A DNA stretch of 32,005 nt from a candidate division KSB1 bacterium. GTDB lineage: Bacteria; Zhuqueibacterota; JdFR-76; DREG01. The notes below the pieces were generated by a model. It was not told the DNA's origin, made no database searches, and saw nothing but the letters and a program-made list of their open reading frames with translations. The position numbers and the translations under genes were made by a program. The DNA is taken from assembly GCA_022566355.1 (NCBI GenBank), contig JADFJB010000050.1:1-32005 (forward strand), written 5' to 3'. Below, one piece after another: positions 1,256-13,979 of this stretch; the first letter of the stretch is position 1; every line of letters begins with the position of its first letter.

Positions 1256-2590
1256 TTAGACTGTTTCGATTTCTCGTTCCAAGATATCCAAAACATTAGA
1301 ATAGTTGTGGATGGTTAAGTCCAATTGCACAAAGGAATCCAACTCTAATTTATTTAAGTAAGAATTGATTCTCGCTGCCCTGGCTTCTGCAACTTGGGGT
1401 TCCGTGTAGGAAAAGAAAAGGATGAGTTCATTTGGGGCTTTACAAAACGCCGCATCCTGGGGTTGCATTAATTTTTTTACCATTAAAACAACATGGTTAA
1501 TTTTCTTTTTGTTTTCAGAATTATTTTCAGCTTGATTCATCGTCGAAAAGCGGAGATGAAGCACAGCATAAGGTTTTTGAGCCAAATGATGCTGGTGCTT
1601 TTCCAATCTTAAAAAATCCTCAAAAATACAACCGTCCAATGTTTGTAATCCATTTTCATTTAGAATCATCTGCAATGCATTATCGTCCGGTTTATCCGGA
1701 ACAATTCCAGGCTTCAATGAAAATGAATAAATAATTTGGGCGTTGGCCTCTTCCTCTTTAAATTCCGTTTCACATGACCAACAGCGTGCGAAAGACAATC
1801 CATGCTTAAATTCAGATTGGCATCTTTCACATCTGTTAAAATGAGAAATTCCACTATTAAATGAATTGCTTTCAGAGTTCTTAAATTGTATGTCCTGGGT
1901 GAATATAGGAGAATGGCAGTCAGGGCAAACGGTTCTAATATTTATTTGATAAGAGCTGCATGTAGGACAGGTCTTAACCATGTCATAAATTCGTTTCACT
2001 AACCATCCATCTTTTTCCACTTTTTCTAGAAATTCGATTTGTTGTTCGGGATTTAGTTCCTTATTATCCCATTTCGAAAGCAGTTTATAAGAAAACCCAA
2101 ACTTTGATTGTCCATCCGGCGCCGGTTTAATTGTTTTAATTTTCTTTGTAATCAAATACTCAACAAATGAAGGCTTGCTCTTGTTATCACTTGATCCATT
2201 AACTTTGGAATCTCTGGAATTGGAACTATAAATCCGTAAAGCTGTATTAATTTTTGCCAATAACATCTCCCGGTCAAATGGCTTTGTCAGGAAGTCCAAA
2301 GCGCCTGCTTGCAATGCTTCAAGCTTGACATTCATATCACGAATATCGGATAAAATATAGAACGGCATTTCGGGATAATGAATGTTGATTTCCCGGCATA
2401 ATTTAGAACTTGAATAACCTTTTAAGCTCCACTCAAAAATTGCAAGATGAGGCTTTACTGTCTTCCATTTCTCCAAAGCAGTTTCACCATCAGCATAGGA
2501 GAAGACTTCGAACCCAGATTCCTTCAAAACGTTATTCAGAACATTTCTGGCATTCATATCCGGTTCAATTATGCTAATCCTGAATTTCAT
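1256..2590 (-). CDS. Atypical response regulator: degenerate receiver, paired zinc ribbons, GGDEF-like C-terminus
   Basis: The N-terminal 120 residues are a receiver domain: acidic pocket E9/D11, switch Ser81 and conserved Lys103 in LTKPF. The phospho-acceptor position is Glu53 (HLAIFEWSLKG; the codon at 2432-2434 reads GAG) instead of Asp, so normal phosphorylation is not expected. Residues of about 208-280 hold four paired cysteine knuckles (CPTC, CPDC, CERC, CWSC), which look like two zinc ribbons. The last 125 residues (HLRFSTMN..., then PNELILFFSY where GGDEF would be) resemble a diguanylate cyclase fold without its active site; this last call is inference. The gene is last in the minus-strand run, nine bases after a histidine kinase. 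ATG start. Glu may mimic the phosphorylated state, or the domain may only bind partners. Confidence 0.7.
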   Translation of the reverse strand: MKFRISIIEPDMNARNVLNNVLKESGFEVFSYADGETALEKWKTVKPHLAIFEWSLKGYSSSKLCREINIHYPEMPFYILSDIRDMNVKLEALQAGALDFLTKPFDREMLLAKINTALRIYSSNSRDSKVNGSSDNKSKPSFVEYLITKKIKTIKPAPDGQSKFGFSYKLLSKWDNKELNPEQQIEFLEKVEKDGWLVKRIYDMVKTCPTCSSYQINIRTVCPDCHSPIFTQDIQFKNSESNSFNSGISHFNRCERCQSEFKHGLSFARCWSCETEFKEEEANAQIIYSFSLKPGIVPDKPDDNALQMILNENGLQTLDGCIFEDFLRLEKHQHHLAQKPYAVLHLRFSTMNQAENNSENKKKINHVVLMVKKLMQPQDAAFCKAPNELILFFSYTEPQVAEARAARINSYLNKLELDSFVQLDLTIHNYSNVLDILEREIETV

Positions 2591-2599
2591 TTTCTTAAA

Positions 2600-3739
2600 T
2601 TATCCTACAGCTTGCCGGGCTATTATTGGGTTCATTGCCTCCAAGCATACCGGCAATGAAAATGATACCTTGAAATATTTTCCATACTCGGTATCCACCC
2701 AAATGGATCCACCATGCTTCTTAATAATATGTTTTGCGTTATACAAACCAAGCCCGGAGCTTTTCATTCCAAGCTGGTTTTCAGATTCAATGCGGGTAAA
2801 TTTTTTAAACAAATTCTTCAATTGATTTCTTTTAACACCCTGGCCAGTATTCAGAACACTGATTTCAAAATTGTCCTCTTTTCTCACCATCTCAACGACC
2901 ACATTCCCTCCCTGGTTGGAGTATTTAACAGCATTTGAAAGGAGATTGTTAAAAACGACTCTCATTAACCCGGAATCACAATCAACCACAATGCTGTCCA
3001 GATCTGTTTCTACCCATACATTCAATTCTTTCCGGTTGTACTGTTCGGTCATTTCTTCCAACACAAACGAAAGAATATCTTTGTGTAAGTCAAACCTCTT
3101 TTTATCAATAACCAGGTCACCTTGTTCAATATTAGCCAAATCCAAATAATTCTTTATCATTTCAATTAATAATCTGGAGGACCGAATAATGACTGACACG
3201 GCTTTCTTTTGTTCGGTTTTTAGTTCTCCCAACAATTCCTCATCCAATAACTCGGCGAAACCGAGAATCGAAATCAACGGATTTCTTAATTCATGAGAGA
3301 CAAATCCCAGCATGTTCAAATATTGCTGATTCATTTGTTCGAGAAGATTATTTTGCTTCTCCAATTTTATCTTGGCTTTATATAAGTTTTTATTGGACTC
3401 CTCGAGATTATGAAATACTTCTGCATTCTCTTTTAAAACTATTGCATGTGACGCAAACATAACAAAAGATCTGAGCTTTTCTTTAACAAGGCATTTATCA
3501 TCCAATTGATCTACATTGACTAAATCGACTCCCGGAATTTCATCAAATCGATCATTATATTCTTTTAAGATCGTGTCCAACAATTCATCCAGATCCGTAC
3601 TTTTTTTTATGAGTTCAGTGCTGACATTGTAATTCCGGAACAATTCTTCGACCAGCATGTCAGCGTTCGATGATTTGGAATTTTTATTGTCAGTTTTTTT
3701 TTTATGTCCTGCTTCTTTCATAAACTTACTGTTACTCAA
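2600..3739 (-). CDS. Soluble sensor histidine kinase (HisKA + HATPase_c)
   Basis: No membrane segment is visible in this 379-residue protein. It has an uncharacterised N-terminal region (1-105), a coiled coil (about 108-140), the H-box VSHELRNP with His149, the N-box around Asn265/Asn269 (NNLLSNAVKYS), the G1 box NTGQG (297-301) and the G2 box SSGLGLY (from 328). All catalytic boxes are intact, so it should be an active cytoplasmic kinase. The listed start is a TTG whose first bases overlap the TGA of the upstream receiver (TTGA, 3736-3739), suggesting translational coupling. An in-frame ATG six codons later (3719-3721) is an alternative; neither has a strong ribosome site. The adjacent receivers are the obvious partners: the canonical one upstream and the Glu53 one downstream. 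Confidence 0.85.
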   Translation of the reverse strand: MSNSKFMKEAGHKKKTDNKNSKSSNADMLVEELFRNYNVSTELIKKSTDLDELLDTILKEYNDRFDEIPGVDLVNVDQLDDKCLVKEKLRSFVMFASHAIVLKENAEVFHNLEESNKNLYKAKIKLEKQNNLLEQMNQQYLNMLGFVSHELRNPLISILGFAELLDEELLGELKTEQKKAVSVIIRSSRLLIEMIKNYLDLANIEQGDLVIDKKRFDLHKDILSFVLEEMTEQYNRKELNVWVETDLDSIVVDCDSGLMRVVFNNLLSNAVKYSNQGGNVVVEMVRKEDNFEISVLNTGQGVKRNQLKNLFKKFTRIESENQLGMKSSGLGLYNAKHIIKKHGGSIWVDTEYGKYFKVSFSLPVCLEAMNPIIARQAVG

Positions 3740-4116
3740 TTTAAACCAAGTGTTTGATATACTTTATCAACCAATTTGATCGGACTAAACGGTTTACTAA
3801 AAACACCCTGGGCATTAGTTTCCCGGTATTTTAATTCAGGAATCGGAACAGCTGTGAGAAAAATTACCGGTATATCGCGAGTTTTAGAATCATTTTTAAT
3901 CTGCCGGCAGACTTCCAATCCATCGTATCGTCCCGGCATTCGAACATCCAACAATACCAGATCGGGAGCTTCATTAGCTATCATGTTCAATGCTCGATCT
4001 CCGTCTTCCGCTTCTACCACATTAAAATCATCAACCATCAGTGTTTCTCTAACCAACGATCTGATTTCCTCTTCATCATCAACAACTAAAATTTTTTTTG
4101 AGAAATATCCACTCAT
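3736..4116 (-). CDS. Stand-alone response regulator (CheY-like receiver)
   Basis: At 126 residues this is just a receiver domain. All key residues are present: acidic pair D13/D14, phospho-acceptor Asp57 in LVLLDVRMPG, switch Thr88 and Lys108 in SKPF. It has no output domain, so it must act by protein contact or as a phosphorelay intermediate. Its stop overlaps the start of the following histidine kinase by four bases, and it follows the PAS pseudokinase by 36 bases. ATG start at 4116. The R-Y-D insertion after PG is common in single-domain receivers of gliding and environmental bacteria. It is the most likely phosphate acceptor from the downstream kinase. Confidence 0.88.
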   Translation of the reverse strand: MSGYFSKKILVVDDEEEIRSLVRETLMVDDFNVVEAEDGDRALNMIANEAPDLVLLDVRMPGRYDGLEVCRQIKNDSKTRDIPVIFLTAVPIPELKYRETNAQGVFSKPFSPIKLVDKVYQTLGLN

Positions 4117-4152: not shown

Positions 4153-5331
4153 TTAATCCTTCATTAAAGCCTTTAATTCCGAATTCCAATTAGAAAATTT
4201 GATGACCAAAACCAAAGATTTCTTTCCCCGTATCTGAAATTTCCCACCATTCCATTCCACAATATCTTTTGCCAGCGCCAGGTTAATCCCTTGCTTATTT
4301 ATTTCGTGATCATTTTGTGTTTTCAACTCTTTCTTAAAATTCCTGGCTTTTTCTTCATTTACTGTTGAATTCTTACATTGAATTTCCATTTCACTTTGGT
4401 TTTGTACCAAATTAATCTTCAATACAGAATTTTGATGAGAACAGAAAACCAAATTTTTTATAATGTTTTCTACTGCTTTATTAAATAATATTTTGTCCGC
4501 TAAAATATAGACGTTGTCGGATTTTTCAAATTGAATTTGTACTTTTAGCCTATATGATTCCGAATCGATGTTGGCAATGGCACTTTTTATTGTTTCGTTC
4601 AATTCAACCGGAGAAACCTCTGAGTCATTTTCCGAAGCTAACGGAGAAAGCCTCATCAGGTCTTCCATTATTTTTTCCAAATTCTCTCCGGATTCTATTA
4701 AAAACCGAAAGTGTGCACTTTCATCTTCGTTTAATTTTGTTTTCAAATCACTGTACAAATAATTTAAAACCCCAATCAAACCATTTAAGGGAGTTTTAAT
4801 TTCATTGGAAGCAAAAGTGAATAAGCTAGTTCTAAGCTTTTCCAGGCGCTTGTTTTCCGTAATATCCCGGAGAACAAAAACAAAGCCACTCCTTTCTGTT
4901 TGTTGGCTGACGGTTTTGGTTACAGTAGCCAGGTAGACTGATTCGCCAAGGGAATTTATTGAAAATTCGAGAGTTAATACCGTGGAATCTTCAGTCTTAA
5001 ACTGATTGATTTTGGGGGTAAGATCTTGAATTGGCAGCAACCTAACAATCGACGATCCTTGAATGTTTTCCGGTGTTTTTTCAATTATATTTTCAAATGC
5101 CTTATTAAATTCTGTAATGACCAAATTGTTATCTGTTGCCACCATCGCATCTGAGATGCTGTTTACAATAGCTTTTAGTTTGTTGTGGGTTTCTTCCAAA
5201 TGGATACGGCGTTCCCGCTCTTTACGGTAGATTTGTGCAAAGTCTTTGCTGTAAACCAAAATTTGTTTTTGCGAAAGGATCAATCTTTCAAACAATTCCT
5301 GACGTGATAAATTAAACTTGGTATCTTTCAA
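4153..5331 (-). CDS. PAS-domain histidine kinase homologue lacking the phospho-acceptor histidine (pseudokinase)
   Basis: The protein is 392 residues long and has no membrane segment. A coiled N-terminus (to about 50) leads to a PAS domain (about 50-160: NSISDAMVATDNN...VLRDITENKRLE), then a HisKA-like region and an HATPase_c-like region. The H-box reads FASNEIKTPLNG, with Asn176 where His is required (codon 4804-4806 gives AAT). The ATP-binding half is also eroded: an N-box-like NIIKN is present, the G1 box is replaced by CKNSTV and the G2 box is only QGINLAL. It should therefore be unable to autophosphorylate. TTG start at 5331 is supported by an AAAGG ribosome site seven bases upstream. 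It lies between the PilP/GspC-like gene and a canonical receiver, so a scaffold or decoy role in a relay is plausible. Confidence 0.8.
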   Translation of the reverse strand: MKDTKFNLSRQELFERLILSQKQILVYSKDFAQIYRKERERRIHLEETHNKLKAIVNSISDAMVATDNNLVITEFNKAFENIIEKTPENIQGSSIVRLLPIQDLTPKINQFKTEDSTVLTLEFSINSLGESVYLATVTKTVSQQTERSGFVFVLRDITENKRLEKLRTSLFTFASNEIKTPLNGLIGVLNYLYSDLKTKLNEDESAHFRFLIESGENLEKIMEDLMRLSPLASENDSEVSPVELNETIKSAIANIDSESYRLKVQIQFEKSDNVYILADKILFNKAVENIIKNLVFCSHQNSVLKINLVQNQSEMEIQCKNSTVNEEKARNFKKELKTQNDHEINKQGINLALAKDIVEWNGGKFQIRGKKSLVLVIKFSNWNSELKALMKD

Positions 5332-5349: not shown

Positions 5350-5814
5350 CTAAAACAGGTAAAGCACTCGGATGCTTTTGTTGTTCGCCAGAACAACTTT
5401 GTCATTACGAATCATGATTACTCTCATATTACGAACCCAATCTCCAAGGGCTACCATTTTTCCACCAATTAATGCGTATTCTTTCTCATCACGATAGACC
5501 AAACCTTCTAATAAACGTTTGGATGTCCGCTTATTCGAACCTGAATTAATATTTGATGGCAGAAACGGATCTCTTAATTGCATATCTATTTCATTCATAT
5601 CATTCGAAGTAGCCAATTGACTTCGGTTGTTAAGCAGACCTTTTAACGTTGGAATTAGGGAATTCGCAATATTCATCTGGCCAAAGTGAATGTTCTCAAA
5701 TTTATGTTTAATATCAATTCCACCAAGCCATAAACTTGTCGTAGCACCACCTATTGCAATTACCAATAATTTTACTACATTTTTCATGAGATAATTAAGT
5801 AAATAATGCTTCAC
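5350..5814 (-). CDS. PilP/GspC-like inner-membrane alignment protein
   Basis: This protein of about 154 residues has one N-terminal membrane segment (about 12-32), a low-complexity linker, and a small C-terminal domain starting with the typical RDPF (81-84) and continuing LEGLVY...ALIGGKMVALGDWV...V..I..DKVVL.N. That is the signature of the PilP / GspC homology-region fold, which in characterised systems links the inner-membrane platform to the outer-membrane secretin. It follows the PilO/GspM-like gene by eight bases. The GTG at 5814 gives the longest form; an ATG nine codons later (5785-5787) is equally possible, and neither has a good ribosome site. No secretin gene follows: the next gene is a sensor pseudokinase. 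Confidence 0.65.
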   Translation of the reverse strand: MKHYLLNYLMKNVVKLLVIAIGGATTSLWLGGIDIKHKFENIHFGQMNIANSLIPTLKGLLNNRSQLATSNDMNEIDMQLRDPFLPSNINSGSNKRTSKRLLEGLVYRDEKEYALIGGKMVALGDWVRNMRVIMIRNDKVVLANNKSIRVLYLF

Positions 5815-5822
5815 TTTTCAAA

Positions 5823-6398
5823 TTATAACAACCAACCTTCAAGGTAAAGATGCACTTTATCCATATATGTATCTTCGGCTATTTCGGGCTTCAGGTGTAC
5901 TGTTTTTATTTCAAAAACTACAAATTCCAATTCAATACCTTTTAAAAACTCTACAATGCTTGCAAAGGAAGCATTAAGTTGAAAACGATACGCATATCCG
6001 ACAGGGATCTCTTCCTGTGTTTGTACGGACAAGTCTATTAGATCTATCTTTTTCTCTAACCCCATCTTAATGATTCGCTGATAAACGTCCATATCATTTT
6101 CACATACCTGGAAATTTGGAATTGAATTTACCGGAAGCCAATTAAAAGCCTGTACGTCAACTTCTTCTAATTTTTGAAAATTATTGTAAGTAAGAGTAAC
6201 TTCATTACGAAGTTGGACTATTTCTGTGTTAAGATTAATTGTCTTTTTAATGATGGATGTAATTCTGGTTGACATCACATAAGTGGTTACAAAGGTTAGT
6301 AAGAGAATAAGAATAGTACTTATCCCCTTCTGGATCCTGGGTAAATACCTGCTAAATTTTGATGATCGATAATTAACTTTTAGTCGAAACTTTGACAT
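5823..6398 (-). CDS. PilO/GspM-like inner-membrane assembly protein
   Basis: A basic N-terminus, one membrane segment (about residues 24-42), a short coiled coil and a small alpha/beta periplasmic domain make up this protein of about 191 residues. This is the layout of PilO and GspM, and the sequence keeps the late feature of PilO-like domains, 'V..Y.F.L...ASF..IVEFLKGIE'. The ATG at 6398 is chosen because GAGAAAG precedes it; an upstream in-frame TTG at 6419 would add seven residues. The start lies inside the end of the PilM/PilN-like gene, implying coupled translation. Assignment rests on topology, size and gene order more than on sequence identity. Confidence 0.6.
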   Translation of the reverse strand: MSKFRLKVNYRSSKFSRYLPRIQKGISTILILLLTFVTTYVMSTRITSIIKKTINLNTEIVQLRNEVTLTYNNFQKLEEVDVQAFNWLPVNSIPNFQVCENDMDVYQRIIKMGLEKKIDLIDLSVQTQEEIPVGYAYRFQLNASFASIVEFLKGIELEFVVFEIKTVHLKPEIAEDTYMDKVHLYLEGWLL

Positions 6399-7983
6399 TA
6401 CTTTCTCGAATGTTAGCAATCAGTTTATAAGATATGAGATCGCTAGTATTATGATCTTCATCAATTTTTTTTAATAACAATTGTGAAAAATACCCAGTTG
6501 CTGACAACTTATTAAAAAATTCAGTGACGTAATTTCCGGACACGCTTTTGCCTTCTATGACGATGGATACTGGTTCTTTTTTTCTTTTTGATTTTCTCTT
6601 TGAGTTTTCTTTTGTAACTATTTTTATGTCAGTAACCCATATCCCCCGGGGAATTTGTTCACTCACCAAAGTCAAAATTGATGATAATTTTCTAAATGTT
6701 GTTCGAGGAATTTCCTTTTTTTGCTTATTAGTCAATAATAAATTATAATTATTTAATTTTCTAAAACTCGATAGATTACTTTCAATTTCTTTCTTTTGTA
6801 CACTTAAACGCGAAAACTCGTGAAGTTTTTGATTATAATTATAAGTCGTTAATACAAAAATAAAAAGTAGCGTAAAAGCCGTCGATAACCCAATTAAACG
6901 CACTCCTCTCATAACCGATTTATCGGTCGAAGTGTTTTCAGGAATACTTCTGATCAGATTTAATCTCTTCCTTTGCTTTGATTGAGCGCCAGCCATGGCT
7001 AAAGCTATTGCTTGAGAAAAAATTGGCTTAATATCATGCAGATGATCAAAATTATTTTTTGCCTTACCCATTGAGAGTTGTGTAAAGGGATTCACGTTTT
7101 GAATTTGTAGGTTCATATTCTGCGAAATATATTCTTTCAACCAGTTGTAAAGCCCGCCACCGCCTAATATTTTAATTTGGAAGATTTGAACATTGTATTG
7201 ATTTTTTAGAATCAATAATAATTCTTTTAGCTCATTTTCCAGTTCTTTTAAGTTTCCTTGAATATCAATCAAAATATTCCCAAACCCGACGATAAAGGCA
7301 TCCTCTTTATAAATCCAATTCTTATTCTCATAAGAAATTTGATCGGATTTTAAAGCATCAAATATTCTTTTCCGGGTTTGTTGATTTATATTTTTTGGAA
7401 TAATTGATTTGAATGAGAATTTGAGTGTCTTAATTTCGAGTATGTTTTGACCGAGTGAAAAAATTAACTGGCTCTTTTTATAACCAATATTTAAAAATAA
7501 ATAATATTCCTCTTTTGAAGTATTCTGCAGTAGTGGAATTGTCAGGTTATCTATTTCCAGTCTTTTCGGAAAACCTTTTAATGCTTTTCTTGGGCTCCAT
7601 TCACTTTTTACAAACTCTTCCGTAACATCAAGATTATATTTTTGATTGTCCAAATTATCTTCAAGCTGTTTTTTTTTGCGAGCATAATTTAGAATTTTCC
7701 TCAATATTGATTTATTCGTTGGATGCATCTTAACCCCATCAGATGGTAAACCAACAGTAATCTTAGCACCATAAAAATTAATTTTTTTCAACCTATGTTG
7801 AATCATTTTTGTTAAGTTTTTTGCAGAAGAAAAAACCGGGAGCTCAAAAAATAGTATATGAGTAAGTTCATATTTTGACTCCAACATCCTTAGCCCGATA
7901 AGTTTAACGGAATGCGTCCCCCAATCTAATCCGAAACTAAGATTCTTTTGCTTTCCCAATATTCTTTTTAAAAACCCTATCAT
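6373..7983 (-). CDS. GspL-like protein / PilM-PilN fusion
   Basis: Residues 1-335 form an actin-like cytoplasmic domain of PilM type: FGLDWGTHSVKLI near the start and LGGGGLYNWLKEYI...NPF at 273-300. Then comes LNLIRSIP (341-348), the PilN-type motif before its membrane segment, a single membrane helix (about 362-381), a coiled coil and a ferredoxin-like periplasmic domain (about 440-530) carrying IVIEGKSVSGNYVTEFFNKL. In type IV pili these halves are two proteins (PilM, PilN); in type II secretion the same layout is the single protein GspL. It anchors the assembly ATPase to the inner membrane. ATG start at 7983; an 81-base gap separates it from the pseudopilin. The gene is markedly AT-rich. 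Confidence 0.8.
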   Translation of the reverse strand: MIGFLKRILGKQKNLSFGLDWGTHSVKLIGLRMLESKYELTHILFFELPVFSSAKNLTKMIQHRLKKINFYGAKITVGLPSDGVKMHPTNKSILRKILNYARKKKQLEDNLDNQKYNLDVTEEFVKSEWSPRKALKGFPKRLEIDNLTIPLLQNTSKEEYYLFLNIGYKKSQLIFSLGQNILEIKTLKFSFKSIIPKNINQQTRKRIFDALKSDQISYENKNWIYKEDAFIVGFGNILIDIQGNLKELENELKELLLILKNQYNVQIFQIKILGGGGLYNWLKEYISQNMNLQIQNVNPFTQLSMGKAKNNFDHLHDIKPIFSQAIALAMAGAQSKQRKRLNLIRSIPENTSTDKSVMRGVRLIGLSTAFTLLFIFVLTTYNYNQKLHEFSRLSVQKKEIESNLSSFRKLNNYNLLLTNKQKKEIPRTTFRKLSSILTLVSEQIPRGIWVTDIKIVTKENSKRKSKRKKEPVSIVIEGKSVSGNYVTEFFNKLSATGYFSQLLLKKIDEDHNTSDLISYKLIANIRESNVKVSTKS

Positions 7984-8611: not shown

Positions 8612-10258
8612 TTAATCCGGATTGGGTAGTGTAAAGATAAACGTAGAGCCCTTATTTGGCTCACTCTCTACCCATATTGTGCCCTCGTGTTCTTCAATAA
8701 TTTTTTTACAAAGCCATAGCCCAAGACCACTGCCACTTGGTTTGGTACTGGGATCATCCCTAAGCTGTTTAAATTTTTCGAATACGATAGTCCTGGATTC
8801 TTTAGGTATGCCTATTCCTTCATCCTTGATAGAAATTTTCAAATAGTTACATTTATCTTTCATGCCATTGCTTTTTATTTTCTCTGTCCATATTTTTATT
8901 ATTCCTCCATCAGGGCTGAATTTTATGGCATTCCCAATTAAATTGACAAACACCTGAATGAGCCGTTTTTCGTCACTAAGAACAATTTCGTTACCATTAA
9001 AATCGGCTTCAAAATTAATGCGTTTTGCACCGGCTACAGCCTGCAATACGAATAATGATTTCTTAAACACAGCTTTGATATTGATGAACCCGATTTCTGA
9101 ATTGAATTCTCCCCTGTTTATTTTACTGATGTCTAATAGTTCCTCGATTAATTGGATCAACCGGTCTGATTCTTTATCGATAATATCGAGGAATTCTCTT
9201 TGACTTTTGGCATCACAGTTTTCAAGATCTTTTAAAATACCTGTAAAAGATTTGATTGAGGTTAAAGGCGTTCTTAATTCATGAGAAACAGTCGAAATAA
9301 ATTCATCTTTCAATTGATCCAACTGACGTAACTGAGTCAACTCCTGCTGCTCTGTCAAATCGCGGCAAACGGCAATAGCGCCAATTTTTTCACCTTCATC
9401 ATTTTTAAGAATGGTGGCATATATTTCCATCAAAAATCGTTTTTTACTTATTGGATTTCGATAAGAAAATTCATCTCGGTTTTCACCTTTTGTAAGAGTC
9501 AAATCAAATAATTGATCTAAAAAATCAACAAATTCCTGGTCAAACAATTCATTGTATCGTAATCCAATCGCTGTGTCATGTTGAGGGCCTAAAATTTCAA
9601 CTGCCGCTGAATTGAACAGTGAAATCTTCTTATCAAGATCAATCGCTATAATGCCGTCTCCAACACTCTCGATTGAATTTTCCATAAATGATTTCATACT
9701 TGACAATACATGACTTTTTGTGGCCATTTCTTCATACAAGCGTGCATTCTCAAAAGCCACCCCAGCTTGCGATCCGATTAAAGTCAGTAGATCGGAATTA
9801 TTAGATGTTATATCCTTTGAATTTATTTTAAGGAAAACGACCAACGCGCCAATTATTTTTTTACCTGTTAATAATGGAATAATGAGTAACGGATGATTAC
9901 TTGCAATCTCATCATCCGGTGGTATTAATGATACTGTATCAGATTCACTAACCCATTTTAAATACCCGGAGCGTTCCAACCAGCGAAGATGTTTATCAAG
10001 TTTGCTATTTAATTTATATTCATTTTTTAGATGGTAATGATCTGCAAATTTCTCTTTTTCAATAAAAGCAGCTCCGGAAAACTCAACAACCTGCTGCAAA
10101 ATTTTGATCACACATTTAAATACTTTATCGACTTGATGAATATCGCCTAAGCGTCTTGTTTCTTGAAAAATATGTTTATATTCCTCAAAATTATTTTGAA
10201 AATCTGCCTGTCCCTCTCCATTTGACCTTGTATAGTTTTCTTGTAGTAACGTTTTCAC
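8612..10258 (-). CDS. GAF-PAS sensor histidine kinase
   Basis: The protein is 548 residues long and soluble. A GAF domain (about 40-175), a PAS domain (about 188-300: VGDGIIAIDLDKKISLFN...VCRDLTEQQ), HisKA with VSHELRTPL and His326, and HATPase_c with Asn443 (IGNAIKFSPDGG), DEGIG (479-483) and GSGLGL (509-514). Every catalytic box is intact. The GTG start at 10258 is firmly supported by a perfect GAGGTGAT ribosome site seven bases upstream. It sits between an HDOD gene and the pseudopilin gene in one orientation. The GAF and PAS domains suggest a cytoplasmic small-molecule or redox signal, which cannot be named from sequence. Confidence 0.9.
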   Translation of the reverse strand: MKTLLQENYTRSNGEGQADFQNNFEEYKHIFQETRRLGDIHQVDKVFKCVIKILQQVVEFSGAAFIEKEKFADHYHLKNEYKLNSKLDKHLRWLERSGYLKWVSESDTVSLIPPDDEIASNHPLLIIPLLTGKKIIGALVVFLKINSKDITSNNSDLLTLIGSQAGVAFENARLYEEMATKSHVLSSMKSFMENSIESVGDGIIAIDLDKKISLFNSAAVEILGPQHDTAIGLRYNELFDQEFVDFLDQLFDLTLTKGENRDEFSYRNPISKKRFLMEIYATILKNDEGEKIGAIAVCRDLTEQQELTQLRQLDQLKDEFISTVSHELRTPLTSIKSFTGILKDLENCDAKSQREFLDIIDKESDRLIQLIEELLDISKINRGEFNSEIGFINIKAVFKKSLFVLQAVAGAKRINFEADFNGNEIVLSDEKRLIQVFVNLIGNAIKFSPDGGIIKIWTEKIKSNGMKDKCNYLKISIKDEGIGIPKESRTIVFEKFKQLRDDPSTKPSGSGLGLWLCKKIIEEHEGTIWVESEPNKGSTFIFTLPNPD

Positions 10259-10291: not shown

Positions 10292-11167
10292 TTATTTACT
10301 CACCATTAATTCGAGAAAACCAATAGCTTTATCATATTCATCGAAAATTTCTTCTTTTAACTCATAAATCTCAGGTTGCGTTATCCCCAATATTTGTTCA
10401 ACAATTGGATCAATTGCTGGCATAAATGGATCGCCGCCATTGCCTAATGATTCTTCTATTGCAATCGAATTTGCCAGGTGAACCAGGCTAACCAACTCTT
10501 TATTGATCGTGGCTTTCCTGGGGTTATGATGAAATGCAACTGCTTCTTGCAGATGTAATGGAAAATTCCACTTATCACACAACCAAAATCCAATTTCGGT
10601 ATGATCTATCCCTTGTATAGTTTGCTCAGCTTCCTTAAACGAAACATGAGTTTTGTCAATACAAGTAAGAATCTTGTCAAAATTATCATGAAGAAATTGA
10701 TCTTCTACAATCTTTCCTATATCGTGAAACAAACCGGCGATGAATGCTTCCTCTGGTAAACCGATGTGGATTTGCCTGCATATTATTTTGCTTATTGTAG
10801 CACAACCGATGGAATGTAACCAAAATTCCTCCCTGTTAAATCTACTAACTCCACTACCTTTAAAAATGGAAAACACGGATGTCGCTAAGACCAAATTTTT
10901 AATCGTATTAAACCCTAATACAACAGTTGCCTGAGTAATGGTGGACACCTGCTTGGGTAAACCATAATATGCAGAATTTGCAGCTTTTAAAACTCTGCTA
11001 ACCATAGCAGCATCCGTAGAAATAGCCCTGGCCAAACAAGCTGGAGACGTTTCCGGATTTTCTACTAACTCAATAACACGCTTAACAACCTTAGAAAGCG
11101 TAGGTAGAGTCTGTATCTGGCTGATGATGTTTTTCAGATTGTCCGGTTTTTTCATCATTTCTCGCAT
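10292..11167 (-). CDS. HDOD-domain signalling protein
   Basis: This 291-residue protein has the HDOD hallmarks: the N-terminal LPTLSKVVKRVIELVENP, the STDAAMVSRVLKAANSAYYG stretch, QATVVLGF, and a C-terminal part with FHDIGK (His148-Asp149) and a later DHTEIGFWLC. An intact HD pair is notable because many HDOD proteins have lost it, so phosphohydrolase activity cannot be excluded. Such proteins act in motility, pilus control and second-messenger responses. The first ATG (11167) overlaps the upstream receiver gene by 77 bases; internal ATGs at residues 4 and 5 shorten this only slightly, and the last has a weak GAG ribosome site. The overlap suggests coupled expression with the receiver. Confidence 0.87.
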   Translation of the reverse strand: MREMMKKPDNLKNIISQIQTLPTLSKVVKRVIELVENPETSPACLARAISTDAAMVSRVLKAANSAYYGLPKQVSTITQATVVLGFNTIKNLVLATSVFSIFKGSGVSRFNREEFWLHSIGCATISKIICRQIHIGLPEEAFIAGLFHDIGKIVEDQFLHDNFDKILTCIDKTHVSFKEAEQTIQGIDHTEIGFWLCDKWNFPLHLQEAVAFHHNPRKATINKELVSLVHLANSIAIEESLGNGGDPFMPAIDPIVEQILGITQPEIYELKEEIFDEYDKAIGFLELMVSK

Positions 11168-11537
11168 TTAGAATTTCTCGCATCCGTCTAGTGATTTTGG
11201 AAGGGCTGAAAGGCTTTGTCATATACTCATTAATTCCCACAAGCTTTGCTTTTTCGATGTCGTATTTACGCCATCGGTCCGTTATCCAGATTACATAAAT
11301 ATTTTGATGTTGTGAATTCTCTTTGATTTTTTGGCACAATTGCAGCCCACAAAAATCCGAAGCCAGATCATCGACAAATAAAACATCAGGATTAAAACCA
11401 TTTTGGATATGCTCCCAAGCTTGTTTGGAAGAACGTACAGTTTCTACTCTATAGCCTTTTTCCGTCAACAACAAAGAAAGAGATCTGCTAATAAATATTT
11501 CGTTCACAGCAATTAGAATATTCGTTTTTCCAATCAA
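11091..11537 (-). CDS. Response regulator, single receiver domain
   Basis: This 148-residue receiver (ILIAVNEIF...PDVLFVDDLASDFCGL...WITDRW...YMTKPFSP) keeps the phospho-acceptor Asp56 and the conserved Lys. The acidic pocket is weakened, with Asn12-Glu13 in place of the usual Asp-Asp/Glu pair. A polar tail of about 25 residues follows the domain and contains no output module. The TTG start at 11537 is supported by AAGGAT seven bases upstream. Its 3' end overlaps the HDOD gene by 77 bases, and receiver plus HDOD is a known functional pairing (often fused), so the HDOD protein is its probable output. About 100 AT-rich bases separate it from the phosphatase gene upstream. Confidence 0.8.
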   Translation of the reverse strand: MIGKTNILIAVNEIFISRSLSLLLTEKGYRVETVRSSKQAWEHIQNGFNPDVLFVDDLASDFCGLQLCQKIKENSQHQNIYVIWITDRWRKYDIEKAKLVGINEYMTKPFSPSKITRRMREILNARNDEKTGQSEKHHQPDTDSTYAF

Positions 11538-11638
11538 AAATTATCCTTATACTTTATTTTCAGATTCTAACTTTTTTATATTATCGACATAAATGACAGC
11601 TTTAATCATACTTTGAAAGCATCATTTAACTATTTAGT

Positions 11639-13225
11639 CTATTTTATCTTCAAAACCAGCAAGGTTAGATCATCTTTTTGTATGGTATTATGATTGAAAT
11701 CTTGCACCCCTTCAAAAATTAATTTTACTAATTCTTTGGCAGATTCTCCTGCTGAATGAGCGATGTCACTCTTCAATTTATCGTATCCCAAAATTACTCC
11801 TTCAGGACTGTCGATCTCAACTAAGCCATCGGTATACATCACAAGAATATCTTTCGATTTAACAGTAACTGATTTTTCTTGGAATTGCACCTCAGGTAAT
11901 ACACCTAACAAAAGGCCTTCGGCATCCAGTTGGTTGATTTCTCTTGTTTTACCTCTATACCACATCACGGGGTGATGTCCACCATTCGCGTAGGTTAATT
12001 CTTTTGTTTTTCGATTGTAGCGAATTAGAAAAATCGAAATGAAAAATCCAGCTCGATTCAGATCTTCAAAGAGAGTCCTATTGGCTCGATTTAACACCTC
12101 TGATACCGGTATTGATTCCTGCATTAATGATTTAAGAACACTTCTTGTAACTGCCATCATTAGTGCAGCACTCACATTATGGCCCGATACATCTGCAATA
12201 ACCAAATCCACACGGTCTTCATTCTCTATATAAAAATCAAAATAGTCACCCCCAATATTGGTTGCCGACCAGCATCTTCCAAAAATTTCTAAATCAGGGA
12301 GAACAGGAAAGTGATTCGGCAATAACCCGAGTTGAATCGTTTCTGCAATTTCCAGTTCCTTTTTCATTCTCTCCGATTCTTTAGCTGTTTCAATGAGGCG
12401 GTTATTATAAATTGCAATTGCTGCAATAGAAGCCACGGAATTTAAGAGCTTCAAATCGCCAGAAGTTAAGCTTTTGGTATTTCTTTTTTCAGTCACATTA
12501 ATCACACCGATTGGTATTTCATTACCCTCGACATGTGTGCAAATCAGCGGCACGGAGATGAAAGACTCTGTTTTATAATCTCTGGTGTGAACTTTGACGT
12601 CATTTGGAATTTTACTACCATTTTGAACCAAAAGAGGCTCACCACGGCGTAGTACGTAACCACTGATACCCTCTTTTAATGAAATCCTGTGATTCTCCAA
12701 TTGCTTTACATCAAAACCTTTCGCAGCAACAACGATCAGTTCTTCCGTCTCTTCCTCGAAGAGCATAATGGATATTCTTGCTACATCGAGAACAATTTCT
12801 ATTTTTTCTATTAACACATCGAATATCTTATCCAGCTCAAAATCAGCTCCGATAGACTGACTTAATTCATAAAGAAGATTTAATTCCTCATAGCGATTCA
12901 ATAATTCGGCGGAAAAGGAGTTCATCTCGGCTTCAACCCGAGATTGATTATTAAGCACAAGCTGTAATAATTGAACAAAGGTTTCTTTAAGCCCTAAAGA
13001 ATACTTTTGAACATCTGGTGAGATTCCTAGGGTCAACGTTGTATCTTCACATTGCAGGCTTTCCTCCAGATATCCATTCTCAGTTCCATTTGAAGAAAAA
13101 ATTAAACAACCCTCTCTTTTAATCCAGAATGAGAACGGTATCAATTGATTGATTTTTAGCATAATGCCTTCAAAGCAATCAGTTTCCAGTGTTACCGCTT
13201 TCGGTGTTGTAGTATTATCCTTCAT
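11639..13225 (-). CDS. GAF-domain PP2C/SpoIIE-type serine phosphatase (RsbU-like)
   Basis: The protein is 528 residues long and has three parts: an N-terminal region (1-95) that I do not recognise, a GAF domain (about 115-275), and a C-terminal SpoIIE/PP2C phosphatase (about 300-528). Metal-binding acidic motifs are all present: IGGDYFDF (Asp327), ADVSGHN (Asp345), YTDGLVE (Asp466) and KDDLTLL (Asp518-519). Proteins of this type dephosphorylate a STAS-domain antagonist, releasing it to bind the anti-sigma-type kinase. Both partners are encoded immediately upstream (10 bases and 6 bases apart), completing a partner-switching set. ATG start at 13225. The GAF domain would be the signal input. 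Confidence 0.92.
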   Translation of the reverse strand: MKDNTTTPKAVTLETDCFEGIMLKINQLIPFSFWIKREGCLIFSSNGTENGYLEESLQCEDTTLTLGISPDVQKYSLGLKETFVQLLQLVLNNQSRVEAEMNSFSAELLNRYEELNLLYELSQSIGADFELDKIFDVLIEKIEIVLDVARISIMLFEEETEELIVVAAKGFDVKQLENHRISLKEGISGYVLRRGEPLLVQNGSKIPNDVKVHTRDYKTESFISVPLICTHVEGNEIPIGVINVTEKRNTKSLTSGDLKLLNSVASIAAIAIYNNRLIETAKESERMKKELEIAETIQLGLLPNHFPVLPDLEIFGRCWSATNIGGDYFDFYIENEDRVDLVIADVSGHNVSAALMMAVTRSVLKSLMQESIPVSEVLNRANRTLFEDLNRAGFFISIFLIRYNRKTKELTYANGGHHPVMWYRGKTREINQLDAEGLLLGVLPEVQFQEKSVTVKSKDILVMYTDGLVEIDSPEGVILGYDKLKSDIAHSAGESAKELVKLIFEGVQDFNHNTIQKDDLTLLVLKIK

Positions 13226-13235
13226 TATGACGAGC

Positions 13236-13667
13236 TTACTCGTTTACTATCTTTTCAATAATCAATTGATTTCTTTGTTTACCCTTGCTGTAATCTAAGC
13301 GATCAACCAGGTTGTGAATGATCCTAAGTCCTCTTCCATGGTCCAATAATAAATCATGATCATTTCGTTGAATGACTTGCTCAAGAGAAAATCCGTCTCC
13401 GGAATCAAATACACGAATACAAATTTTATTTCCCTTTCCTTCAATTTTATAAGTCAATTTCTCTTGGCAATTTTTATGATTTACATGAAGATGAACATTG
13501 GTCAGAGCTTCTGTAAGACAAAGTTCAACCTCAAAGGCTAGATTCGGATTATCAGGCCAAATGGATTGAACAATATTTTTCCCCACCACAGAGAACCTGC
13601 GAATATTTTCAACAGTTCCTAAAAACGAAAACTCTACCCGAAAACTATCAGTTAGTGTTTTACTCAT
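13236..13667 (-). CDS. Anti-sigma-type serine kinase (RsbW/SpoIIAB-like HATPase)
   Basis: This 143-residue single-domain GHKL ATPase has an N-box variant ELCLTEALTNVHLHV, a G1 box DSGDGF and a G2 box DHGRGLRII. That is the compact RsbW/SpoIIAB form: it binds a target (often a sigma factor) and phosphorylates the STAS antagonist. It sits six bases after the STAS gene and ten bases before the phosphatase gene. The target is unknown, since no sigma factor is encoded in the window. In several FCB and delta-proteobacterial systems such modules control non-transcriptional targets. ATG start at 13667. Confidence 0.88.
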   Translation of the reverse strand: MSKTLTDSFRVEFSFLGTVENIRRFSVVGKNIVQSIWPDNPNLAFEVELCLTEALTNVHLHVNHKNCQEKLTYKIEGKGNKICIRVFDSGDGFSLEQVIQRNDHDLLLDHGRGLRIIHNLVDRLDYSKGKQRNQLIIEKIVNE

Positions 13668-13673
13668 GTAAAA

Positions 13674-13979
13674 TTAAATTACTTCAAAAATTTTGTTTAA
13701 GCGGGTTATTGAAAACATAGAAGAGACATGTTCTGTGAGCCCGGAAACTCGAATCGAACCTTTGTAACGCCTTGCCTCTCTTAGTCCATAGACAAGTGCT
13801 CCTAAACCGGAACTGTCTATAAAGGTGACTTTCTGTAAATCTAAAAGTAAATCGGTATTACCGGTGTAAACTTGATCAATAAGAATCTCACGGAGCTGAT
13901 CTGCATTTTCAATATCAATGGTTTCCTCATCAACCAAAATCCTAATTGTATTATCCTGATTAAAGTAATTTACTTTCAA
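13674..13979 (-). CDS. STAS-domain anti-sigma factor antagonist (RsbV/SpoIIAA-like)
   Basis: The 101-residue STAS domain contains the phosphorylation loop VTFIDSSGLGALVYGL; the second serine (Ser57) matches the phosphorylated residue of SpoIIAA. It would be phosphorylated by the kinase encoded next and dephosphorylated by the GAF-SpoIIE protein. The start is a TTG at 13979. No other start is possible in this frame because TGA stops it six codons upstream. Only a weak GGGA lies in front, so poor translation of this first gene may be part of the stoichiometry. It is the first gene of the three-gene switch. Confidence 0.9.
   Translation of the reverse strand: MKVNYFNQDNTIRILVDEETIDIENADQLREILIDQVYTGNTDLLLDLQKVTFIDSSGLGALVYGLREARRYKGSIRVSGLTEHVSSMFSITRLNKIFEVI

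Follow-up and report, generated by a model that had tools for sequence, protein, structure and literature searches.

A pseudo-histidine kinase without its phospho-accepting histidine or G1 box, adjoining a single-domain receiver in a pilus-linked locus of a KSB1 bacterium

What could a histidine kinase do when its gene is intact and its key catalytic residues are missing? The question is raised by a protein encoded in a 32,005-nucleotide stretch of DNA (the window) from a candidate division KSB1 bacterium. A first-pass annotation had described this protein as a kinase that keeps its PAS and helix-bundle framework, carries Asn176 in place of the phosphorylated His in the H box FASNEIKTPL, and lacks the G1 box. 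Each of these observations held: the frame is open and the codon at 4804-4806 is AAT, the G1 position reads QCKNSTVN in an aligned survey of kinases, and Pfam recognized both the PAS domain (1.2e-10) and the HisKA domain (2e-6). The gene and its parts are listed below.

4153..5331, minus strand: putative PAS-DHp-degenerate CA pseudo-histidine kinase; open frame, 392 aa, TTG start
5182..5331, minus strand: N-terminal segment, residues 1-50, which includes SQKQILVYSKDFAQIYRKERERR; conserved across the order in the alignment
4861..5181, minus strand: PAS domain, residues 51-157 (Pfam PF00989)
4639..4830, minus strand: HisKA (DHp) hairpin, residues 168-231 (Pfam PF00512)
4804..4806, minus strand: Asn176 codon at the phospho-accepting His site; the ExxT motif (E177, T180) is retained
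4228..4491, minus strand: HATPase_c-like CA remnant, residues 281-368; 15.6 bits, below the 26.4 cut-off
4357..4380, minus strand: former G1 box, residues 318-325, from the profile alignment, with numbering from the translation

The DHp hairpin of a canonical kinase is thus present, with a HisKA score that barely passes (28.2 bits against a cut-off of 26.9), whereas the phospho-accepting His and the complete N, G1, F and G2 set of ATP boxes are not. The earlier statement that much of the ATP site had been lost is a fair one, given the missing G1 box and an HATPase_c score far below the 81 and 103 bits of two other window kinases scanned with Pfam, but to say that all of it had been lost would be unfair: the N-box pair N289 and N293 is retained, and G2 is partly left (QGINLALAK). 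Judged by its sequence, the protein would belong to the pseudo-histidine kinases, in which key catalytic residues are missing from the product of an intact gene. An AlphaFold2 model built from an alignment of three window proteins was too poor for use (pLDDT 43, pTM 0.27).

The motif losses cannot be put down to chance, because both motifs are nearly universal among the kinases that we surveyed by profile alignment: 88 of the 91 that cover the His column have His, and 87 of the 92 with a scored G1 box have [DN]xGxG. The survey started from 114 profile-matched proteins, which collapsed to 97 distinct kinase-type sequences. It takes in, at E 1e-10, all 16 matches from the window's own genome and all 22 from genome G002, together with 9 of 12 from G005, the phylum-search loci listed, and kinases from the fetched blocks of other genomes of the order. 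His is missing from the window protein and from two G002 proteins, the orthologue and one other kinase; the five without [DN]xGxG are four members of the pseudokinase family, the window protein included, and one protein that has no H-box column. A published census likewise gives His-less HisKA domains as a small minority, 0.9% (722 of 76,471; PMC12632262). With no recognizable G1 box and, in the window species, no His, the pseudokinase would be unable to make phospho-His. The other G002 kinase (locus L083, 200-1108, minus strand) has Asn at the His position (IRNEIVNPL) and intact G1 and G2 boxes.

We looked for the same gene in the order to which the window belongs, which comprises seven genomes here (the window genome and G001 to G006). 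A profile search returned a full or long match in six of them (E 1e-144 to 1e-195); in G001 the contig ends next to the receiver gene, leaving only what appears to be the part that encodes the C terminus. The G1 box is missing from all six readable orthologues, window included, as read from the profile alignment for the window, G002, G005 and G006 and from the alignment plus a contig-end piece for G003 and G004. The residue at the His site varies: the window has Asn (AAT), G002, a genome of its family, has Gln (CAG), and the other four, G003 to G006, have His. The second Asn of the N box is gone in G002, G003 and G004 and retained in the window, G005 and G006. HATPase_c scores were 15.6 bits in the window protein, 18.6 in G002, 32.6 in G005 and 30.9 in G006, the last two above the 26.4 cut-off; Pfam found no HATPase_c match in G003 or in the contig-cut G004 fragment. 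The partner kinase described below (HKp) scored 81-88 bits in the four examples scanned. With G1 gone in six of six, HATPase_c weakened and His absent in two of six, the sequences indicate that the ATP half has decayed throughout the pseudokinase family, to differing degrees, and that, as far as sampled, His was probably lost solely within the window's family. The first-pass annotation had taken the two catalytic halves to be lost together, and had named orthologues with His as the finding that would speak against it. The G1 part of that claim stands in every readable orthologue; the His part does not, as four of the six aligned orthologues carry it. The Asn and Gln codons are each one base away from a His codon and two from one another, which is compatible with two independent changes or with a single loss followed by drift.

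Relatives beyond the order were considered as further orthologues and set aside as ordinary kinases. They score at most 161 bits in a phylum-wide profile search (E 1e-38), against 480-647 bits for the pseudokinases within the order, and all 24 loci read beyond the order, among the matches listed (L021-L044), have both His and DxGxG. A scan of contigs for relatives gave one candidate, an Ignavibacteria kinase, whose boxes are intact.

Is the protein maintained, or is it decaying? Open frames persist in orthologues that are just 30-36% identical to the window protein; the window and G002 frames are both intact at 36% identity. Mean pairwise identity within the pseudokinase family is 54.9% in the DHp domain, 44.3% in the N-terminal segment (residues 2-50), 34.1% in PAS and 26.5% in CA, compared with 79.6% in DHp and 50.1% in CA for HKp, so the pseudokinase evolves faster than HKp throughout. 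For G005 and G006, both of which keep His, dN/dS was about 0.09 over the whole gene (dS 2.3) and 0.064 over DHp (dS 1.0), with dS near saturation; this was the one pair taken, and its values for the pseudokinase CA domain and for HKp were not computable. Between these two genomes the pseudokinase is under purifying selection. A gene free of selection would be likely to pick up stop codons. The view that this is a maintained pseudokinase is thus borne out by the open frames, by selection in G005 and G006, by DHp being the most conserved domain and by the neighbours having been kept. In a quick tree of 88 sequences (rows shorter than 150 aa left out, midpoint rooting), the six orthologues form one clade (SH-aLRT 100), within which the window protein, the G002 protein and the other four (support 83) join in an open fork, which fits either course of His loss. 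The tree gives the family no firm sister group; HKp falls on its side of the tree (support 88), with long branches.

The genes around the pseudokinase lie on the same strand.

5350..5814, minus strand: PilP-like protein gene, upstream of the pseudokinase; named from position and synteny
3736..4116, minus strand: single-domain receiver with phospho-Asp D57, T88 and K108 retained (Pfam PF00072 5e-25)
2600..3739, minus strand: canonical partner kinase HKp with His149, N box, NTGxG and GLGL; its first 4 bases are also the last 4 of the receiver gene
1256..2590, minus strand: response regulator made of a receiver with Glu53 at the phospho-site, a TackOD1 zinc domain and a C-terminal region that aligns with GGDEF-like domains

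A Pfam scan of the PilP-like protein gave no match. The PilP-like gene is separated from the pseudokinase by 18 bases, the pseudokinase from the single-domain receiver by 36, and HKp from the TackOD1 regulator by 9, the receiver and HKp genes overlapping as noted; from this spacing, the block is probably co-transcribed.

Each of the seven genomes of the order has the receiver beside the pseudokinase. It adjoins a full pseudokinase frame in four (the window genome, G002, G005 and G006) and the contig-cut C-terminal end of one in G004 and G001; in G003 a single 494-aa frame joins a pseudokinase with a shortened CA domain to the receiver. All seven receiver orthologues aligned have the Asp, Thr and Lys residues in place. 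HKp is more widely distributed: of the phylum's 82 genomes, 17 have an orthologue at E 1e-60, 10 of them outside the order. We fetched the neighbourhoods of nine of these ten (that of G074 was left out), taking frames of at least 85 aa; several of the stretches are short contigs. In all nine a TackOD1 regulator directly follows HKp (at L113 it is split into two frames), and no pseudokinase or single-domain receiver was found between or directly beside the pair. As neither adjoins the pair at any of the nine loci, this suggests that the pseudokinase and receiver entered an older HKp-TackOD1 unit together; the alternative is loss outside the order. Weak receiver-type frames (27.8-43 bits) do occur farther away, past neighbouring genes, in three of the nine stretches (L111, L112 and L114), which makes the novelty of the receiver in the block less sure than that of the pseudokinase. 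Residues at His+7, His+11 and His+12 were considered as a sign that HKp and the pseudokinase share a receiver and were rejected: Gly-Phe at His+11/+12 is common to HKp and the His-keeping orthologues, but it also occurs too frequently (31 of 91 kinases) to be informative. The window protein has Gly-Val there.

With moderate confidence, on grounds of sequence and of analogy, we favour the reading that an ancestor resembling ChpT or Spo0B has become, in this lineage, a DivL-like non-catalytic protein that docks the receiver. Two sets of observations lead to it. Within the protein, G1 is lost in six of six orthologues and His in two of them, the orthologues form one clade, DHp is the best conserved domain and CA the least, and dN/dS is low between G005 and G006. 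In its surroundings, the receiver is linked in seven of seven genomes with its Asp, Thr and Lys kept, the two are fused in G003, and the pair is absent beside HKp at the nine loci fetched from outside the order. The precedents of DivL, PhyT and ChpT complete the case. HKp would autophosphorylate and then charge the receiver at D57. The pseudokinase would serve as a dimeric DHp platform for the neighbouring receiver, its hairpin binding the phosphorylated state preferentially, and the PAS domain and CA remnant would relay the state of the receiver by contact to another component, as DivL does with DivK~P. In the His-keeping relatives G003 to G006 the protein could still accept phosphate from the receiver, in the manner of ChpT, Spo0B and PhyT; the ATP half would have been lost first and His afterwards, in the window's family. 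Here we infer the dimer, the binding, the phospho-preference, the kinase for the receiver, the output target and the order of losses. The DHp domains of the window and G002 proteins are only 41% identical, so this domain drifts too where His is gone, which counts against the docking reading.

The likeness to DivL of Caulobacter lies in the PAS-DHp-CA layout and in the replacement of the phospho-His. DivL is described as binding DivK~P under PAS control without kinase or phosphatase activity (PMC4211667). Its partner DivK is a single-domain receiver phosphorylated by other enzymes; the pseudokinase is tied to its receiver by gene order and the G003 fusion. DivL has Tyr for His, yet, according to the same paper (PMC4211667), keeps the H, N, G1, F and G2 motifs, whereas the window's family has no G1 and bears Asn or Gln at the His site. 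The DivL structure 4q20 shows low sequence similarity to our protein (E 2.3e-9) and ranks under many ordinary kinases. ChpT, Spo0B and PhyT are portrayed as degenerate kinases whose His shuttles phosphate (PMC3433190 and PMC5898713); they share with the pseudokinase a kinase-like architecture, a preserved DHp domain and receiver partners. Their CA domain has no role in autophosphorylation, and the loss of G1 from six of six orthologues suggests that the same may hold for the pseudokinase. They act through the His that the window and G002 proteins lack, and fit the His-keeping orthologues G003 to G006 better.

A dedicated phosphatase, in which DHp and its ExxT motif would strip phosphate from the receiver with neither His nor ATP, is unlikely. 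E177 and T180 are retained in the window, and His is reported to enhance HisKA phosphatase activity without being required for it; the same text, however, records lowered phosphatase activity for CrdS H371A (PMC3510030), and H260 is stated to participate in the HK853 reaction (PMC5727384). At the T/N position, moreover, G002 has Val and G004 has Ala, which leaves the motif residue in four of the six orthologues. PhyP is a cautionary case: initially called a phosphatase, it was inactive as such in vitro and turned out to be a phosphotransferase (PMC5898713), and the census authors (PMC12632262) argue against phosphatase activity as a general role of His-less kinases.

Distinctly unlikely, in our judgement, is a modulator that pairs with HKp through DHp and alters its activity, as has been proposed for ChrS and HrrS of C. 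glutamicum. The two genes do share one block in seven of seven genomes of the order. PMC9491836 reports that catalytically dead ChrS increases output via HrrS and that native ChrS and HrrS associate in two-hybrid assays, but also that the truncated ChrS pseudokinase gave no two-hybrid signal. Evolved ChrS resembles the pseudokinase in having a dead CA domain and still acting through a partner system; it differs in that a laboratory frameshift in CA left the DHp His in place, and it is a different protein (PMC9491836). Against pairing, HKp and the pseudokinase form separate clades on long branches, and the G003 fusion joins the receiver, not HKp.

We give little probability to a relaxed remnant, a histidine phosphotransferase in the His-keeping relatives of which the window copy is an open but non-functional relic. 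Evolution is indeed fast: in one and the same tree, the path from the window to G002 measures 2.08 for the pseudokinase and about 0.80 for HKp, and the window CA domain shares 17-30% identity with those of the others. Both His-less proteins are nonetheless full-length, with N-terminal segments 53% identical, and the gene is closely packed among its neighbours, one of them an intact receiver. Finally, a base error at 4804-4806, although AAT is one base from CAT and the draft assembly has 213 contigs, is scarcely credible, since G002, of the same family, has a different residue (Gln, CAG) at this site and the loss of G1 is independent of any single base.

The first-pass annotation had placed the gene between pilus alignment complex genes and a canonical receiver. 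The receiver is adjacent as stated; the pilus side of the claim is weaker. Pilus assembly genes precede the pseudokinase in the window, whereas in G003 pil genes are absent between the upstream kinase and the pseudokinase, and a secretin gene (Pfam-confirmed for G005) separates the PilP-like gene from the pseudokinase in G005 and G006. At four of the nine loci outside the order (L111, L114, L115 and L116) a gene for a MshEN-T2SSE (PilB-like) pilus ATPase directly precedes HKp; MshEN is a c-di-GMP-binding domain. The block is therefore pilus-linked, yet the receiver is the tightest partner of the pseudokinase. Farther upstream, a single frame of 536 aa (6373-7983) has both a PilM-like and a PilN-like part (Pfam PilN 1e-6, and PilM_2 7e-4, below the cut-off), an apparent PilM-PilN fusion. 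Past the upstream kinase (8612-10258), genes for HDOD, receiver, SpoIIE-type phosphatase, RsbW-like and STAS proteins, named from reading the sequence, occupy 10292-13979 and stand in identical order in G002 and G003.

At the other end of the block, the TackOD1 regulator has Glu at the phospho-site in all six members of the order read and in three f9 genomes; among the other genomes outside the order it is Asp in four and Ser in two. The Glu-bearing regulator lacks the Asp acceptor that a relay needs, which counts against the downstream output of the docking reading. We rejected a tie between this Glu and the gain of the pseudokinase, as the three f9 genomes have Glu with no pseudokinase beside HKp. 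The C-terminal region of the regulator aligns with the GGDEF-type domain of relatives at L108 (3978-5600; Pfam GGDEF 5e-9), L112 (1167-2513; 3e-9) and L053 (17315-18718; 5e-6). The window regulator itself has no GGDEF Pfam match, and a GGDEF signature was found in none of the 14 rows covering the region, of 15 aligned (G063 does not cover it). The TackOD1 domain is reported from some bacteria as well as from type IV pilus loci of archaea (PMC5847659), and the present locus sets such a regulator beside bacterial pilus genes.

Pseudo-histidine kinases are already a recognized class; new here is a family in which G1 is lost throughout and His in part. Among the matches listed from the openly licensed PMC literature, no paper on pseudo-histidine kinases of this group was found by title. 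More tentatively than the docking reading, we suggest that the locus may record a passage from a phosphotransferase-type degenerate kinase, with His kept and the ATP site dead, to a contact-only reader of receiver state, with His replaced by Asn or Gln, possibly independently, in two genomes of one family. The receiver would have been built in as a hybrid in one relative, and the pathway would be a pilus-linked one in which the pseudokinase, the Glu-bearing output receiver and the GGDEF-like tail each lost catalytic residues. The bacterial cases compared lost one half each: His in DivL, and the ability to use ATP in ChpT, Spo0B and PhyT. Among plant ethylene receptors there are some that have neither. 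The pseudokinase family has both His-kept and His-lost members at one locus and with unchanged partners, and would let the effect of losing His, after ATP use had gone, be compared directly.
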